Source: Owenia fusiformis
Taxonomy: Eukaryota; Annelida; Polychaeta; Sabellida; Oweniidae
DNA length: 64,000 nt
NCBI GenBank assembly: GCA_903813345.2
Contig: CAIIXF020000004.1
Span: forward strand, 24,925,985 to 24,989,984
Direction of reading: 5' to 3'
This document shows positions 3,001-39,430 of this stretch, piece by piece; within the stretch, counting starts at the first letter, position 1; the number at the start of each line of letters is the position of its first letter. Under the pieces are notes generated by a model. It saw only the letters and a list, made by a program, of their open reading frames with translations, had not been told where the DNA came from and searched no databases. A program made the position numbers and the translations under genes.

Positions 3001-4490
3001 GAAACTCCACTAAATGTTTATATAATTTTAATAATCTGATGATAGTAAATATTAAAATGCAACTTGTAGATTAATTTGTCATCATTTATAGACAATCAAA
3101 ATAAACAGAAATTCTGTATATTTAACCTACTTAGAATATATCTTTGTGTACTGGACCTCAAAATGCATGGACAGTTTACTGTGCTGAGCTCCTAGATCTC
3201 CACCCCGAAAATAAATGATACATTATGGTGTTTTGAAATGTGAAATGTACTTAAAAAGACTGTAATTAGCAAGAAATAAAATAAACAGGCATGTAGTCAA
3301 CCCTCCAAATTGTATAGAAATGCAAGCAAATCAGACACTTTAATCAAATTTTAGATAGAAAAAGCAAGAAATATGCACCAGCAGACGGCTTGCACAGTCA
3401 AGGTGACAATCAATAGTAATCTAAGAGAAAGACAAGAATAAGCTGAAGATCCAATATTCTACAAAACCTCTAAGACCTTCATAAGTCTCCCTTGTGAAAA
3501 ATTTGCGATGAAGAATTATTGGTTTTTATTGGATTGTGTGTGGACCTACCATAGGTCAATGAACCCAATTATTTTTATCCATTATGTAGATGCGATCTTT
3601 GTGATAGTTTTTCACTTATTTCCCTATGAAATTACTACTTTATTCCTAGGTGATTACATTGTTTTTCGCTCTTTTTTCACTCTATTTTCTGTTTTGATAA
3701 ATCACTGTTTTGTGTAGCAAACAATTTATGTCACACTAGTGCATATGAATTGTACCATTTGTACCACAGGAATTGTACCATTTGTATATTTATGTACCAT
3801 AGGATCGGAAGTGTACCATTTGTGTATGATTGTGCCATACCATAAGAATTGTACAATTTGGATAGGTTAGATCCTCCATATTTTACAAGCCCCTCTTCAC
3901 AACCCCCCCCCCCCCCTCTTTCCATTTTTGTCAATTTGAATGAATCGCAATACATAAAATGTTATTAACTAACTCAAAATGATGACGAGAAAATCACTGT
4001 ATATTTAAGGATGATTGTGCCATTTCATTTAGAAAATTAATGTTTATTCAAGGATAAGTGTGTCATTTAGAAATATTGTTAATTGGTAGATTGGCAGATA
4101 GAACAGGTTAAAGGAGGATGTACATTTGGTGAAGTGGCTTCTATTGAATGAATAAGTGCAATTAAGAGGCACATAAGTGTGATTTAAGTGCAATTAATGG
4201 ATATGTAAGTGTGATTTAAGTGTAATAACCACTCAAATACAAAAGTACACAAGTGAAAATGTCTGTCATCAGTATATTATAACATAAGTAGAAAATTGAA
4301 CTAAGGTATCAATTTATCATATTCCTAAAAGGGGTCCAAAATTCATCTGCTCTTCGCTTCTCCATTGTCTGCAATCAACTGGTCCATACGAGTATATAAA
4401 GACCGGAAAGGTCATTTTTTTATTTGTATTATAGAGATTTCACATTTTTTGTTATAAACCAATCTAAAATATACAAAAGTTAGGTCATAG
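1..4490. other. non-coding stretch with dispersed repeats
   Basis: I see no convincing exon. One repeat family occurs at about 335-500 and 1165-1330 in one orientation and at about 605-730 and 3225-3370 inverted; its members share a core reading 'tacaatttagagtgttgac'. A truncated copy of the CAGGCCCGTAGCC MITE family lies at 1707-1805, an AAAC microsatellite at 2166-2194, and a partial copy of the 38.5 kb foldback element at about 2825-2995. Homopolymer runs occur at 601-611 (G) and 3902-3917 (C). Open frames here are short and without recognisable motifs. Confidence 0.6.
2825..2995 (+). repeat. partial copy of the foldback element seen whole at 38474-38883
   Basis: The stretch from 'gacctatcagatatttgaaaatcaa' to 'tccccagttgtcagaa' follows the left arm of the 38.5 kb element (GACCTACC..., GTGAGTCTCATACTGCA, AGAGTCCCTC, GTCCCCAGCTGT) with scattered substitutions. 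Only one arm is present. Confidence 0.6.
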
Positions 4491-4492
4491 GT

Positions 4493-4651
4493 ACTATGAG
4501 GTTATATAATGGTTCTTTCTGTATATCGTGTTTATACTCGAGTGAGTATATGATATATTCACAAGTGAGCGTAGCGAACGAGTGAATATATCATATTCTC
4601 ACGAGAGTATAAAATGCACGATATACAGAATGAACCATTATATAATCTTAT
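4493..4651. repeat. palindrome, arms about 70 bp
   Basis: The left arm reads GGTTATATAATGGTTC followed by a copy of GTATATCGTG; the right arm returns CACGATATAC and GAACCATTATATAA. The centre holds the GAGCGTAGCGAACGAG motif. No target-site duplication is obvious. It directly abuts the TIR element at 4651-4995. Confidence 0.6.
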
Positions 4652-4995
4652 TATGCCACTCTAAGTTCAATTACAGTTGATTCGAACACAATCATAACAA
4701 TTAAAAAAACATAAAAATATCCCATAGCCAACTCAATAATGCTGATGTTGATCTCGAACCATTTATGACATGACTTGATTCTAGCAAATCATGCCGGAAC
4801 CATTTATGACGTCACTTGATTCTAGGAAATCATGAAAATTTTCATGATTTTTTTATTCATTAGTTCCCAGAATGCACTTCTACAGTGGTATACGCTCGGA
4901 GGAGTTGTATACGATGACGATATACCACTCTCCACTATATATCGTTGTTATAGACCCATGTTATACAACTATAATTGGACTTAGAGTGGTATAAA
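4651..4995. mobile_element. small non-autonomous TIR element
   Basis: The left end reads TTATGCCACTCTAAGTTCAATTA and the right end returns its complement (AATTGGACTTAGAGTGGTATAA). It has no coding capacity. It lies just downstream of the glycosyltransferase gene on that gene's strand, in or near its 3' flank. Confidence 0.5.
4852..4857 (-). promoter_or_regulatory. candidate poly(A) signal of the glycosyltransferase gene
   Basis: AATAAA on the minus strand, about 260 bp after the stop codon at 5116. It lies inside the TIR element above. This is only a hexamer match in AT-rich DNA. Confidence 0.25.
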
Positions 4996-5115: not shown

Positions 5116-5912
5116 TCAGTGCTTCAGAGTAATGGGTTTCAGAGTATTTGGTTTTGGAGTATTGGGATTTGGAGAAATAGGTGAACCCCTGTTTAAGTAA
5201 TCTTTCCACAAAAGCTTTTGTACATTAGTAGGATGTGATACATTGCAGTAATGAACAAGTGTTGTACCTCCAGGTATAACCATTGCTGCATTTCTAGGAT
5301 CTTGTCCCAAACGGGCCTCGTGTGTGTCGGAGAATCGTAAAACGTACTTATTACATCCAGTAGCTGACACTCCAAGTACTTCCATCAAAGCGCCAAAGTA
5401 TGTATCATCGGGGAAACATAGTGGTAGTTTACACAATAAGAAATTCATATCCTGTATCACTGATTGGCTGAAGAGTATGCCACAACCTGCGATGTACGTT
5501 GGATAATGGATTTTCCATCCCTTCACAGGACATAATAGTTTTGATTTACCATCATGACGGATCTTGGAATGGAACACTGTTCCACCATGATAAAGTCTTG
5601 TGACGTTACGTTTTAGCATGTTATGAAGAGAGTTTATCACCTTAGTGAGGTTCAGAAACACATCATGTGTTATTCGAAAAACATACTTTGCTCTCGGACA
5701 GTATAATTGAATCCATTTAAAACCAAATGCATCCTTTTCTGTCATTTGTTTATAACCATCGGGAAAATTTCCGACTAAAATGTCTTCATCTATTTCATTG
5801 GGAAGGACTGAATTGTTTGCATCGCCATATAGAAATACGGTTCGAATCTGCCAGCTTGAGAACCTCTTTACTGAACCAAATGTATTCCTAATTTCATCTC
5901 GCATAGGTTTAG
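5116..5912 (-). CDS. GT31-like gene, exon 2 (catalytic domain)
   Basis: It starts after the TTTTTTTAATTTCAG acceptor at 5927-5913 and ends with TGA at 5118-5116; 797 bp. It carries residues 149-413, nearly the whole GT31 domain. An ATG-initiated open frame runs upstream to 5997, but that part is intron. The last 20 or so codons derive from a short direct repeat (aatactc/aaaacc-like units), so the original stop may have been displaced. Confidence 0.8.
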
Positions 5913-7126
5913 CTGAAATTAAAAAAAGTTGACAATGCAAACATGTTTTAAAATACAAAATAGAATGTTCATGGATCATCAAGAAATAAGGAAGCAAAAT
6001 ATCCTAAAGTCAGATAGTGTGTTTATTTAAACAAACAGATAGTGGTTATACTGTGAAGCAAAACTATTGTATCACTTGATCTCAACATCCTCCGAGTGGA
6101 GAGCTCCAAACACCATCAACTCTTTTCCTTCAACCAGGAACAGAGTTGACAATGTCTGGTGTCCTGAGTTTATAGGATGATATATGGAATTTTAGATTTG
6201 GACAAACAGGATTCGGAGTTTGGAATTCCGACCAATGAGGCGACCGAAATGATATCACTAGTAAGCTCACTTTTTCTGATGGAGTTTTCTTTCAATTTCA
6301 TAATCCACCATTTGTATTACAGGAATGTCACTTTTTGTGTTATAAATCCAAAAGAAGATCATCTTAAATAGGTTCAATATTTTGAAAAAATTTTTGACAT
6401 ATTATATCATATTTTTTCGTATTGTTTGAGATATATTTATTATGGGGACTTCACTTGAAAGAAAATATATTGTTTTGATAAAACTACTGTATTTATGCCC
6501 AGAAAGTACTCATGGTGAAAGATATGACAGTCTCAAATCACTTGCAATACTGCACATTGCCCTTTCTTAGACAAGATCACCATTCTCTCTTCATATTTGA
6601 CATTTTGACCGAGAGATATCAACATCTCTGCTTGACCCCATAAGATTTTCCCACTTTTATGGTGTGTTCTTTTAGACATACCAGTTTTGTGACTAATGAC
6701 AAACAGCAAAAGAAGGTTCTCCTCATCTCGCACTTCACAAATATCCCATTTCGGCCATTTTATAACCTTATAGTCATCAAGAAAACTATTAGTCCAGTTT
6801 AGATGATAAAGCTCACGTGGAACATTCGAGTTTGCATTTTGTGGTTTCAATTTTGGTTGCGTTTGGGTTTTGTCAATAGAGGCACATTGTAAGGAATCCC
6901 AAATTTTGTGTCTTGAGAATTCTGCATCTGCTTGGTTTGGCGATGCTCTGAAATTTGAGTTTATGAGACTTTTTTCATCTGTTTCTGCTTGCTCGGGAAA
7001 TGAACTGAAATGTACCTTTGATATTTTTTCAACAAAACTTTGTGTGAAAAATACTTCCAAGATTATCATTATTAATCCTGTAACGAAGATACATTGCATG
7101 CTTATTTTTAATTCAGCCAAAGTCAT
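5116..7126 (-). CDS. GT31-family beta-1,3-galactosyltransferase-like protein, two exons, 413 aa
   Basis: Predicted Golgi type II membrane glycosyltransferase transferring a hexose from a UDP-sugar in beta-1,3 linkage; acceptor unknown. Exon 1 is 7126-6682 and exon 2 is 5912-5116. The donor (G|GTATGT) and acceptor (TTTCAG|C) join in phase, giving VISHKT-AKPMRDEIRNTFG, the family's start-of-domain pattern (LLxVxSxxxxxxxRxxIRxTFG). A signal anchor lies at residues 11-27 and a luminal stem follows. Family blocks seen are DILVGNFPDGY (192-202), TEKDAFGFKW (206-215), YPTYIAGCG (286-294) and PDDTYFG (316-322, usual EDVYxG). The usual DDD metal site is replaced: THD at 230-232 in RITHDVFLNL. That raises doubt about activity. 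The C-terminal tail is a Pro/Asn/Thr repeat (NPNTPKPNTLKP). The gene is probably nested antisense in an intron of PCCB. Confidence 0.85.
6682..7126 (-). CDS. GT31-like gene, exon 1 (signal anchor and stem)
   Basis: The ATG at 7126-7124 opens MTLAELKISM, followed by a hydrophobic segment (CIFVTGLIMIILEVFF). The coding part is 445 bp and ends one base into codon 149 at the GTATGT donor (6681-6676). The same frame stays open past the donor, but the sequence beyond it loses family similarity, and the exon 2 acceptor restores the conserved block. Confidence 0.8.
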
Positions 7127-34136: not shown

Positions 34137-34993
34137 CTACATGATATTACATTTGTCTGCCTTTACTGCGCCGACTATGCCCTCAGCAACGGCAACAACG
34201 GGAGGAGGAAGGACGGTTTTCATAACGGTCAAAATAGTGCCTGGCAGGTCGAACCCCGAACTTTCTTGCGCAGACTCCTTCGCCAGATCTTCATCGGTTC
34301 CTACACGGCCCTTCTTACGCTGTTTTTTAGCCACGGCTGTTTGAAGTTTCTTTGCAAGTCCATGCGGGTCTTTGCAGAAGTCGCTTCCTAGTCCTTTCCT
34401 CAATGCGTATTTAACTAGCCTCTCGCCCTCCGCTTTCCTATTATCGGCACGATTGTTGATAACGAAGTAGCGATTGCCGCAGTTTTTGACCAGGCTTTGC
34501 ACACCAGGTGGGGCATCTTCTAGGAGTGCCTTGAAGTCTTCACCGCTACGTTCAATCTCATCTCCCCTCGTGAAGACTACAATGGCAAACTTCAACATGT
34601 TGTCGCCGAAGAATCGCTTCACCGTTTCGATAACTTCTTCGTCTTCTTCGGTGAAACGATCAATCTTAACAAGAATACAAAAGACATGAGGCCCGGGACT
34701 TGCGAGGATCATTCCACGTGCTATTTGCTTATAAATTGCTGTATCATCTTTACTTGTGTCGCATATCCCCGGGGTGTCAATGACGGTCACTTTTCGTCCA
34801 GCCAATGATGTTTCACCGTAAGAACTTGTGGTTGTCTCCGATTTAAATCCAACGCCTTCTTTGAATTCGTCACAATCAAGGATTGTGTTTGCCGTTGAGC
34901 TTTTCCCATTGCCGGTTTTCCCTAGGAGAACAAGACGCAAAGGAAGGCCGTCTTTCACGTTCTTTACTACTTCGTCAATATGGCGGTCTTCGT
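34137..34993 (-). CDS. AIG1/GIMAP GTPase exon
   Basis: 857 bp from the TTACTTTTCTTTCAG acceptor to a stop at 34139-34137. The GTPase signature set (G1 GKTGNGKSST, G3 DTPGICD, GIMAP box SPGPHVFCILVKIDRF, then FFGDNM and FTRGDE) makes the family call firm. GC content is visibly higher than in the surrounding DNA. Members of this family control survival of immune cells in vertebrates and are expanded in several invertebrates; the role here is unknown. Without splicing, translation could begin at 35045 (MILPTVPFIKVW), giving 302 aa. Confidence 0.93.
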
Positions 34994-37900
34994 CTGAAAG
35001 AAAAGTAACCCATACTTTTATAAAAGGCACAGTGGGCAATATCATGGAAAGACAAACAAACGTTCAAAAATTGATTCACAATATTACTTGAATAACTATT
35101 GAAAGCGGTTCTTAATTATACAGAAAAACATTTAAAAAGATCATATTTAAGACAACTTTTATCATCAGAATGTGCAAAATGAAGTTCTTAACAAACATGT
35201 TTGTGACAATAATTACCAAAAATTGAAATTAGTCATACACACTCTACTATACCTTGCATTGGGTGTTCATTAGCAGCCCTTTTGGCTTATTAGTAATGAT
35301 TATGTTATTTGTTTTTTTGTCTGTTCCTTATTAATGGTTTAACGGATGCCGTTAAATGTTAATAAGGTACTTTCAAAAATATACCACACAATACAATTGG
35401 ACAAACAGATTATCTTATGCATTTCTAGGGGTTAGGTAAAGTAGAGTGATACACTACAACCGGTACTGGAGAATGACACCTTAATTAATTTATACTGATA
35501 TGTGAACGATTTTGATAAAATTAACCAATAATATCAGTAGGCTAATACAGTAATAATTGTTTCCCATTTCTGAACTCGTAGAAAATATATAAATGAAAAG
35601 GTAACTGGTCAACTCAACCCCAAGTCAACTCAACCCAAGTCAACTCAACCCTTAGTCAAGTCGACCCCAAGTCAAGTCGACCCTTAGTCAAGTCGACCCC
35701 AAGTCATCTCGACCCTTAGTCAACTCGACCCAAAGTCATCTCAACCCTTGGTCATCTCAACCCTTAGTCAACTCGACCCAACCATAAAAAACAAATAGAT
35801 ATACTATTTTCATGGTATGATATTGATGAATTTAGAAAGAATGAGGGATTAAAATGCTAATTTTCCAAAATAAAATTATTAACTATTGAAGTTTGTGCTT
35901 AACGCATTTATAATTTTTTATAAATATGACATTTATTTACCAAAATAATATTTGATTAATCTTAATGGGGCTATTCACGATGCTATACATATATTTCACC
36001 CCTTCATATTTGAGCTTGTTTTATCTCTCTGAAATAAAAAAATTATCTATACACTTTTCTGTTATACCGAAATTGTTGCAACAGTATTTTTGACAACAGG
36101 TAACTTATGCAACATGTGCATTGTGCCAACATCCATCCATTACTTTGTATTGAATGATTTTATAATTTGATAATAATAATAAACAATATGATATAGTTCA
36201 AATCTTCCTTCTGAGCTATAGGCGATAGAAATGTTTATTTTTTGAATCTAGATTTTAAAACAAGACTGAACAAACAATGGGATTTATGTTTTTCTATTTT
36301 CCATTATCTTACTCATATGTCAGGTGTCATAAACAATCAGATTGGGATTTTATCATCCATTTCAAATCTTCGTTTTGATCTATAGGTGGCAGAAATGTTT
36401 TTTTCTTTGAAGTTTGATTTCAAATCAAACTGCACAAACAATGGGATTATATTGTATTTTAATCTACTTAAAACAAGTAAAATCATTTGGGTCGACTTGA
36501 CTAAGGGTTGAGTTGACCAAGGGTTGAGATGACTTGGGGTCGAGTTGACTAAGGGTCGAGATGACTTGGGGTCGACTTGACTAAGGGTCGACTTGACTTG
36601 GGGTCGACTTGACTAAGGGTTGAGTTGACTTGGGTTGAGTTGACTTGGGGTTGAGTTGACCAGGAAGCAATGAAAAATACATGCTTAATTAAATATATCG
36701 CTTGATTTCTATCCATTGGTATATGATGAAAACCAATTTGACATTTCGACAAGTAGGGTCGTGTTATCATTTATACCCCACTGAGCACTGCTAGTGGGGG
36801 TTGAAATAATCACAAGCCAGAGATATCCATTCAAGATCGGACTCTGCTGCTCTAGCAACCATAGGCCCCGCGAACATGTATAAAATAGCGAGTTGACATC
36901 TGTATTACTACTTCTTTTAGAAAGAAGAAGTAGTAATACAGATGTCGACTCGCTATTTTATACATGTTCCCGGGGCCTATGCTAGCAACTTTAGCATACT
37001 ATAGCCCAAACGAAGGGTATAGAAAGAATTGAAATAACCGTTGGAGCAAGGATGGAAATAATAAGATGGATTTTCCAATTGTCAGCTTTCCCTTGGAGTA
37101 GTACTTAGTCAATTTATTATTTGATTCATCGTTGGAAGTCCCATCCGTATTTATAGAAATTCCGATATAAGCTATGTTTTGGGTAGGATTAAGATAAAAT
37201 TAGATTATTTTTTGGTTCCGGGAAGTCAACACATATTTAGTTTGTACTGCATGTATACGGTACCTAAGGTAGACAGACAATCACTGGTGGATCCAGAAGC
37301 TAGCAAGCGGGGGGGGGGCACATTTCAAGTAAGGAAAAAATGTTCGCGCTTGCGTGGAAAAACTTTTTTGCCCCTAAAACCGAAAGATTAAGGCCCATCT
37401 TTTGAAAGTTTGGCCTAAAAATCCCCAAAAAGGACAAGTTATGCCCAAAAGACCCATTTTTGAGGCCCTACAAAATTTTGGGGGCCCTAAATAAATTCTC
37501 CACCAGTAGAGTCCTCCAATAGTTACCAATGATTCACAAGTAAGGTGTTACATAATATCGTTTGTAATTCTTACGTCACCCCACGTTCTCCTTGAAAATT
37601 AGGTGCATTCATGCACCCTCTGGGTCTCTGAGGATCGTGTTGGCCCCATACGACAATCCAACGCATTAGAGGTGCCAGTTGTAAAACTCGATAAGCCTGA
37701 TATGGATTACCCTGGGCCCACTGGCGGATTAGGGGAAGGGGAGGAGCTAGCCGCCCCCACCCCCTAAGGTATACTCAAAAATGGGCCCAAACATTTGTAG
37801 AGCCCCAATTAGTGGGCCTTTTTGGGCATTATAATTACTTTGCTTTTTGGGTCCTAGTTTTATTTTTTATTTTTAGGCCAATTTATCAAGAAAACGGGCT

Positions 37901-39430
37901 TTAAATTAGTATAAATCTTTTCAGACTTTAAATTTGCACCCCCGCTCCTTCTTAGTTTTAAAATCCGCCCCTAGTTGATGAGGATCTCTTCAATGAGGAT
38001 AAAATCAAACTAATGCAAAGGCTACACAATGCACGTTTAATATCTACACCTTTTTGATAAAATATTGTAAACAGTACTTTAAGATGTGTCAAATTGACCC
38101 TGTTCATAACGGACTTACCACTCCTACGTACTTAAAACCTGAGACCATCATAACATTTTATGCTAGTTAAAACTTCACCAAAACTAAAATGTATGTTATT
38201 ATGTATCTATAACACTTCATAACCTCTAATTGTTGTTTTTGAATTATGGTGTATAAAAGAAACCATATCCCCCCCACACACACTTCAACCCTTTCGTGTC
38301 ACTTCTATATATGGTCGTCTTTCCAAGATTCATAAATATAGATAGGGTATGTCATTTCTCAAAGCTCAAAGGTCCCTAAAATATTATTTCCCGGTCTTCG
38401 TGCTTCTGTAACTATGGCAACAGAAAATAACTGGTTTTCATACCGTGACGATAGATTCTTTCGAGCTATATAATCACGCGGTACAAACTTCGACCGTTAA
38501 TTTGAATTTTTGACCTACCAGATGCTTGAAAATCAAGGATTGTGAGTCTCATACTGCACCGTTTTTCTTCAAACTTATACCATTAAAAGCAAAACGAAAT
38601 TGCCTTTCTGTCGGTGCATTACTTTATTGTAAAGAGTCCCTCGTTCAAGCAGCGTTTTGGTCCCCAGCTGTTAGAAGGCCTTCTTACAGCTGGGGACCAA
38701 AATGCCGCTGGAAGTAGGGACTCTGTTTAAGAGAATAATGTACCATTAGAAAGGGATTTTTGTGATGCTTTGAATGGAACAAGTTTGAAGAAAAACGGTG
38801 CAGTATGAGACTCGTAATCCTTGATTTTCAAACATCCGGTAGGTCAAAAATTCAAATTAACGGTCGAAGTTTGTACCGCGTGATAATGTTATGCATTGCT
38901 AATGCACTGCATTGTCGATAGAGAATGGGATAAGCAGTACGATTTAGATTTCCTATATTGATTTTATGAAGTTGTTTCCGCCGGACGCCAATCCTTTAGG
39001 TAAATGTGAATGAGGGGTTAACTCCCAGACACCCACTCCCCCTGTTAACTAAATATGACAAATGTTGATCCTCGCTGCATTTCAAGTTCAAAAGTTAATG
39101 CAAGTGGGTTCATCATTATCGACCTGTTCAAGTAAATTGAATGGGAGTACCAATTGTGATTTGGGACACGCACTCTAGTTCTTAAAACTGACCAGGCCCA
39201 ATCCTCCCCGAGGAGAGCAAAAATGAAATGCAGTCAGATCCAATGGTCCCATCTGATCACCCTAACAAACAAAGCTTACCATAGCTTCTACCTGTATGTC
39301 GACTACTACCCCCACGTCGCTGGCCTGACGGCGAGTCACCCGGATGCAGCCACTTATCAAAATGATCTGGATTTGTCCTGTAGCATTTGTCCCAGTATTT
39401 GCACCGCTCTTTTGATCTTCCCGTTGCCAT
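34137..39430 (-). CDS. PBZ zinc finger - AIG1/GIMAP GTPase fusion with C-terminal CaaX-like motif, two exons, 335 aa
   Basis: Exon 1 is 39430-39280 and exon 2 is 34993-34137. Exon 1 starts in a strong Kozak context (GCCATGG) with an in-frame stop upstream, and ends after 50 codons plus one base at a GTAAGC donor; exon 2 follows TTCTTTCAG and begins with the two bases completing GAC. Residues 10-32 form a canonical PBZ finger: Cys10-x5-Cys16-x6-His23-x5-His29 with CYRTN and HPGD. Such fingers bind poly(ADP-ribose) in DNA-damage factors. Residues ~69-270 are an AIG1 GTPase: P-loop GKTGNGKS (75-82), DTPG (123-126), the conserved box LASPGPHVF and TRGDE (G4-like). A basic KKQRKKGR stretch follows. 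The protein ends CNIM, a plausible prenylation box. The join is inferred from strand, phase and splice sites only; exon 2 also stays open to an ATG at 35045. Confidence 0.6.
35605..36663. mobile_element. 1.06 kb foldback element whose arms are tandem 15-16 bp repeats
   Basis: The left arm (35605-35785) consists of units like GTCAACTCAACCCCA / GTCAAGTCGACCCTTA / GTCATCTCGACCC; the right arm (36488-36663) is the inverse of the same (GGGTCGACTTGACTAAG...GGTTGAGTTGACCAG). The interior of ~700 bp is AT-rich and non-coding. The ends are CTGGTCAACTCAACCCC / GGGGTTGAGTTGACCAG. No clear TSD. Confidence 0.75.
36859..36982. repeat. near-perfect 120 bp hairpin
   Basis: ATAGGCCCCGCGAACATGTA ... ACTACTTCTTT pairs with AAGAAGTAGT ... 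TACATGTTCCCGGGGCCTAT; the arms are ~58 bp with almost no loop. It could be a tiny foldback MITE; an RNA hairpin from the minus-strand intron is possible but unsupported. Confidence 0.75.
38474..38883. mobile_element. 410 bp foldback element, probable 3 bp TSD
   Basis: Ends are TCACGCGGTACAAACTTCGA and TCGAAGTTTGTACCGCGTGA, flanked by TAA (38471-38473, 38884-38886). The arms are ~200 bp and pair almost fully, with a centre at AGAAGGCCTTCT (38672). Single-arm relatives lie at 2825-2995 and 55345-55495. Confidence 0.8.
39280..39430 (-). CDS. PBZ zinc-finger exon with start codon
   Basis: 151 bp coding MATGRSKERC then KYWDKCYRTNPDHF and DKWLHPGD, followed by a Ser/Gly/Arg linker (SPSGQRRGGSSRHTGRSY). 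The Gly that usually follows the aromatic residue after the first Cys is Trp here (KYWDKC). All four zinc ligands and CYR are intact. The frame upstream of the ATG meets TGA about 60 bp earlier with no other ATG between. It is too short for standard ORF listing. A second possible donor, CAG|GTAGAA, lies 13 bp earlier. Confidence 0.75.

Follow-up and report, generated by a model that had tools for sequence, protein, structure and literature searches.

Does the PBZ (zf-CCHH) finger exon that lies upstream of a GIMAP GTPase exon in this stretch of Owenia fusiformis DNA belong to the same gene as the GTPase, and what could such a finger do for a GIMAP? We addressed this question in the window, by which we mean the whole 64,000-nucleotide stretch analysed here (C4:24925985-24989984), together with the 498-Mb genome that contains it, which was searched with AIG1 and PBZ models.

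The predicted gene in the window

The features of the predicted gene are collected in Table 1. A sequence-only reading of the window had described a 151-bp exon with a complete PBZ finger, a Kozak ATG and a GTAAGC donor, and the sequence matches that description, with GCCATGG around the ATG and the donor G/GTAAGC (slashes mark splice sites). The second coding exon starts at 34993 after the acceptor TTCTTTCAG/AC, so that the proposed 39279/34994 junction corresponds to the two intron ends and its coordinates are correct. The in-frame join from finger to GIMAP that had been claimed to end in CNIM also agreed with the sequence, as the predicted joined frame of 335 aa is open to the TAG at 34137-34139, with CNIM as its C-terminus; across the predicted splice, the protein would read MATGRSKERCKYWDKCYRTNPDHFDKWLHPGD...RSY/DEDRHIDEV...KCNIM.

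Table 1. Positions of the features of the predicted PBZ-GIMAP gene, in window coordinates
Feature	Position	Strand	Details
Coding exon 1	39280-39430	(-)	151 bp; PBZ finger, basic/Ser/Gly linker, phase-1 donor
PBZ (zf-CCHH) finger KERCKYWDKCYRTNPDHFDKWLHPGD	39335-39412	(-)	Genome profile match 43.6 bits, C4:24965319-24965396
Predicted phase-1 intron, 4286 bp	34994-39279	(-)	GTAAGC...TTCTTTCAG
Inverted-repeat element, intron	38470-38887	(.)	Arms 209 nt, 86%
Short hairpin element, intron	36855-36986	(.)	Arms 62 nt, 94%
Inverted-repeat element, intron	35605-36663	(.)	Arms 177 nt, 98%
Coding exon 2, GIMAP GTPase and tail	34137-34993	(-)	857 bp including stop; AIG1 5.2e-48
AIG1 G domain: GKTGNGKS, DTPG, conserved box SPGPHVFCILVKIDRFTEED	34428-34940	(-)	C4:24960412-24960924
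C-terminal CNIM, CaaX-type prenylation signal	34140-34151	(-)	Sequence inspection

When the joined 335-aa protein was searched against Pfam, as had been proposed, both domains exceeded their curated cut-offs, with zf-CCHH at 6e-10 (residues 7-32, 39.3 bits vs a cut-off of 22.7) and AIG1 at 8e-48 (residues 69-239, 163 bits vs 27). The AIG1 model also matched 12 of 14 prokaryote control genomes, being above the cut-off in seven, and its cut-off alone is therefore not GIMAP-specific, so that weak AIG1 matches need not be GIMAPs; the zf-CCHH model matched none of the same number of control genomes. Compared with solved structures, the G domain of the joined protein was closest to GIMAP7 (3zjc, 8.6e-36), and upon alignment to GIMAP7 the G1 motif GKTGNGKS, the G3 motif DTPG and the GIMAP box PGPHVFCILVKIDRFTEED were all present. 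The window had no matches to Rfam, and a retrocopy bridging both domains, sought in the genome as proof of splicing, was not found. Elsewhere in the window, a galactosyltransferase-type frame is seen at 5119-6003 (-) (Galactosyl_T 1.1e-19).

Pairing of PBZ fingers with GIMAP exons across the genome

The AIG1 model gave 35 matches genome-wide, with 24 of these being strong (at least 104.8 bits, the next at 46.3 bits), and the PBZ model gave 22, half of them (11) above the Pfam cut-off. Five of the 11 fingers lay on the same strand as a GIMAP exon and 0.5-4.4 kb upstream of it, namely in the window on C4 and at C3:27.42 Mb (L001), C3:8.02 Mb (L002), C11:28.87 Mb (L003) and C1:13.84 Mb (L004), and the five GIMAPs so paired were the top five AIG1 matches in the genome. 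If the 11 fingers and the 24 strong exons were scattered uniformly at random, 0.0013 pairs would be expected within 5 kb upstream; because the five loci share a history of duplication, the pairing shows linkage and not five independent events. As four related genes are arranged alike, the pairing cannot be put down to chance at a single locus. In fetched stretches near the 18 GIMAP exons without PBZ, covering about 2 kb upstream for most of them, no finger was found with a profile derived from the fingers of this genome; that profile scores the PBZ1-type fingers described below poorly. The genome-wide PBZ and tandem-finger searches likewise listed no finger beside these 18 exons.

We examined the splice phase at all strong GIMAP exons but the one on contig C511, 23 in total. 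The nearest acceptor passing our rule was in phase 1 for 21 of these 23, and the remaining two, both at L012, had a closer phase-1 AG that was seen by eye and skipped by the pyrimidine rule; under a stricter acceptor rule there were 17 exons with phase 1, one with phase 2 and five with none (n = 23). GIMAP exons in this genome thus call for an upstream exon ending one base into a codon, which is what the PBZ exon supplies. In all five PBZ-GIMAP pairs, the donor following the finger and the acceptor preceding the G domain are both in phase 1, and the fusion claimed for the window is well supported by four paralogues that, as judged from their sequences, keep both the pairing and the join. A start at 35045 in the open frame of the GIMAP exon was rejected as unlikely, because nearly all examined GIMAP exons have a phase-1 acceptor at that place.

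The PBZ and GIMAP exons of the window thus almost certainly form a single gene of two coding exons, encoding a predicted protein of PBZ finger, GIMAP GTPase and CaaX signal. Separate genes lying side by side, or a GIMAP with another 5' exon while the PBZ exon serves a different transcript, could be suspected from the length of the intron (4.3 kb vs about 0.5-1.4 kb in the four PBZ-GIMAP paralogues), but inverted-repeat elements make up part of the extra length, with three clear elements of about 1.6 kb in total and one weaker pair. Phase-1 acceptors being general among GIMAP exons, other phase-1 first exons could also fit, and the nearest relatives of the window finger in the genome adjoin non-GIMAP frames; these points are to be set against the repetition of the pairing at four other loci with their shorter introns, and against a window that contains no other PBZ finger above threshold and no other GIMAP match. 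We consequently regard separate genes or transcripts as very improbable. The profile made from this genome's own fingers detected no second PBZ in the window beyond the one finger, and because that profile is poor on PBZ1-type fingers, an exon of this type would be visible there to the tandem-finger query alone, which listed none in the window.

In a tree of the 23 GIMAP exons, the five PBZ-bearing ones did not group together: the window gene, L003 and the group of L001, L002 and L004 each had a deep branch of their own, and the basal nodes were weakly supported. The PBZ state required three changes on this tree compared to a mean of 4.7 after shuffling, with a value this low being reached in 16 of 500 shuffles. 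The fingers nearest in the genome to that of the window were those of L006 and L007 (52%), with the L003 finger at 33% and those of L001, L002 and L004 absent among the matches listed. A single origin of PBZ-GIMAP with later losses is still conceivable, and it is disfavoured by the window finger being closer to the L006 and L007 fingers than to that of L003.

The PBZ fingers and their other partners

The window finger has the form C-x5-C-x6-H-x5-H with CYR and HPGD, in the same spacing as APLF finger 1, to which it was identical at 15 of 30 residues by eye, including CxY, CYRxNP and HPGDS; among solved structures, APLF (2kqb) was also the best match of the finger exon (whole-sequence 4.9e-9, best single finger 2.3e-5). 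The PBZ consensus is described as C-x-[F/Y]-G in a passage of PMC4030884, and the window finger, reading CKYW, agrees with it at the Tyr and departs from it by having Trp in place of Gly. That replacement is found in all five GIMAP-adjoining fingers, each of which retains both Cys and both His residues; the consensus Gly is not a zinc ligand, and the family score still passes despite the Trp. The residues after the second Cys, where we take Tyr-Arg to be PAR contacts, are CYR in the window and L001, CHR in L002, CKR in L004 and CFK in L003, with x6, x9, x7, x7 and x6, respectively, as spacing from this Cys to the first His. At the Tyr-Arg and spacing positions, the window finger is the most APLF-like copy. 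PBZ fingers are described as binding poly(ADP-ribose), or PAR, in passages of PMC4030884 and PMC9881148, the tandem PBZ of APLF doing so more than 1000-fold better than single fingers according to the latter, and the sequence of the window finger fits with it probably binding PAR.

Comparing open frames between loci, we found a second, upstream finger exon (PBZ1) in L001, L002, L004 and in L008, a locus without GIMAP. It is PBZ-like, with C-x5-C-x6-H-x5-H, and has a phase-2 donor matching the phase-2 acceptor of the next finger exon (PBZ2). PBZ1 keeps its ligands, is without the aromatic residue at +2 and the basic residues after the second Cys, and is not reported by Pfam. PBZ2 is invariant at 23 of 32 columns across its four copies, of which three precede GIMAP and one precedes Mab-21. 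Among L001, L002, L004 and L008, PBZ2 had dN of 0.04-0.13 with dS of at least 1.48 in all six comparisons (three saturated), and PBZ1 dN of 0.17-0.28 with dS of at least 0.84 (one saturated), values that with about 15-19 synonymous sites show constraint and not its exact strength; two inserted codons of the L001 PBZ2 were dropped, and the window and L003 fingers were left out. It could be argued that the fusion is real with the finger serving as a passive zinc-bound spacer or oligomerization element that has no signalling ligand, as PBZ1 of the tandem genes keeps the ligands and not the PAR-contact residues, but the near invariance of PBZ2 at high or saturated dS speaks against this and makes it quite improbable. 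In L001, a stretch between PBZ2 and the GIMAP exon (rc, about 3326-3411) resembles a degenerated duplicate of the P-loop region of GIMAP.

The other six PBZ matches above cut-off are those of L005-L010. At L008 (C10:22.05 Mb; G000:C10:22054400-22062400, minus), the tandem PBZ exons are followed downstream on the same strand by a 383-aa frame with Pfam matches to Mab-21 (8.8e-15) and Mab-21_C (1.8e-13). The PBZ2 donor is in phase 1 (GAG CTA G/GTAAAC), as is the Mab-21 acceptor (CATTGTAG/AA). Compared with solved structures, this frame matched cGAS-like receptor 1 best (8gjy, 6.4e-23), closely followed by MID51 (5.1e-19), the latter being a mitochondrial protein of the Mab-21 family, and upon alignment to cGAS-like receptor 1 it keeps a DEFDL stretch. 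L008 may possibly encode a PBZ-cGLR protein, which as a single locus is a weaker case than that of the GIMAPs. Five Mab-21 family matches are also found within about 90 kb at G000:C4:24827974-24918214, ending 8 kb to the left of the window.

At L005, a PBZ exon lies directly upstream of a LIG3-type BRCT frame (4034-4683 (+), 1.1e-18), which suggests a putative PBZ-bearing DNA ligase 3. L006 and L007 (C1:51.73 and 52.81 Mb) have near-identical PBZ exons, that of L006 near an F-box frame and that of L007 near repeated BRCT-like frames, one of which was scanned. Three PBZ-like fingers in two exons were furthermore seen about 2.1-2.8 kb into L025 (G000:C10:3887800-3897700; 3.89 Mb, (+)), where Pfam sees one of the three, below cut-off. 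No GIMAP-like or Mab-21-like frame of at least 75 aa was seen by eye in about 17 kb downstream of these, and the genome-wide AIG1 and Mab-21 lists held no match near L025.

Lipid signals, possible function and relation to known proteins

The sequence-only reading had also placed the protein on membranes through prenylation. The upstream PBZ1 exons start with MGGAQSRP in L001, MGNSSSKP in L002 and MGQKPSKA in L004, and MGxxxS[KR] is a pattern of N-myristoylation, suggesting that the products of these three genes may be so modified. None of the three has a CaaX box, and the membrane part of the proposal is strengthened by their N-myristoylation-like starts; it does not extend to L003, which has neither signal. 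The window gene, in turn, has a single finger, no MGxxxS[KR] start and the CNIM end, so that a lipid signal is present in four of the five PBZ-GIMAP genes. Among the 18 GIMAP exons without PBZ that were examined, four likewise have CaaX-type ends (CNIM, CKIM or CNIL; L019, L020 and twice in L022), and the PBZ1 exon of L008 has no MGxxxS[KR] start.

We consider a membrane-anchored GIMAP that is recruited or clustered by PAR to be the best reading of these genes, and hold it with moderate confidence. The finger would bind PAR made by PARPs, while the lipid anchor, being a prenyl group on CNIM in the window protein or an N-myristoyl group in three paralogues, would keep the protein membrane-bound. 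Several molecules could then be gathered by PAR chains, leading GIMAP G domains to dimerize and a scaffold to form or dissolve, whereby a PAR signal arising from DNA damage, infection or PAR-driven cell death may be converted at the membrane into a response that serves survival or defence. GTP-bound GIMAP2 dimerizes, and membrane scaffolds have been proposed, as described in a passage of PMC8201404. Such a PAR-triggered membrane scaffold is, on the sequences at hand, a tentative proposal at slightly less than an even prospect. The PARP catalytic domain gave 14 matches in the genome, counted exon by exon.

In the main rival reading, the PBZ-like finger would be a sensor head of the GIMAP for something other than PAR, such as RNA of viral or cellular origin, a nucleic acid carrying ADP-ribose, or a protein. 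The Trp in place of the consensus Gly and the drift of PAR-contact positions and finger spacing among the paralogues would agree with this, as would the related tandem module preceding the Mab-21 frame at L008, cGAS-like members of the Mab-21 family being sensors of nucleic acids. The same applies to a passage of PMC4030884 in which PBZ fingers are described as structurally most like the C3H1 fingers that bind ssRNA. The likeness of the window finger to APLF finger 1 argues, however, for PAR, and another ligand seems unlikely to us. PAR-driven recruitment or clustering thus remains the preferred reading. A wider idea, namely that cytosolic immune effectors of this lineage have come to share PBZ fingers as an input module, among them the GIMAPs and, in one gene, a cGAS-like nucleotidyltransferase, is rather doubtful; on this idea, PAR itself would be the danger signal by which innate immunity is set off at membranes.

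In relation to known proteins, the window protein shares GxxxxGKS, DTPG and the box PGPHxxxxxxxxxRxTEED with GIMAP/IAN GTPases such as GIMAP7 (3zjc), and differs from these by the added N-terminal PBZ finger. With APLF (2kqb) it has in common the C2H2 PBZ finger with CxY, CYRxNP and HPGDS, and three of its paralogues likewise have two tandem fingers, whereas here a GTPase and a lipid signal replace the other parts of APLF, Trp replaces Gly, and the first tandem finger is degenerate in the PBZ-GIMAP paralogues. Compared with the Mab-21 family (cGAS-like receptor 8gjy, MID51), L008 pairs Mab-21 with the same type of tandem-PBZ module, whereas the effector of the window gene, GIMAP, is a different domain. 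Partners of invertebrate AIG1 domains described in passages of PMC7053062 and PMC12373286 are death/CARD, kinase, ARM-type fold, coiled-coil, transmembrane and Hint, and the word 'zinc' is absent from the main text of the former. That no PBZ-GIMAP protein is known to have been described was in line with our searches of openly licensed full-text literature, in which none was found for either PBZ with GIMAP or zf-CCHH with AIG1; protein annotations may hold the pairing unremarked. The same literature gave nothing for Mab-21 with PBZ, nor for cGAS-like receptor with ADP-ribose and zinc finger, and a link between GIMAPs and ADP-ribosylation was absent from the titles among the matches listed. The five genes thus carry an apparently undescribed domain pairing, the function of which we infer.

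In mammals, the survival of immune cells is controlled by GIMAPs. A candidate PAR reader built into such a GTPase, along with a lipid anchor, would provide a defined, testable input for this family, and would connect GIMAP scaffolds with PARP signalling. Together with the PBZ-Mab-21 locus, this suggests that ADP-ribose signals may feed invertebrate innate immunity.
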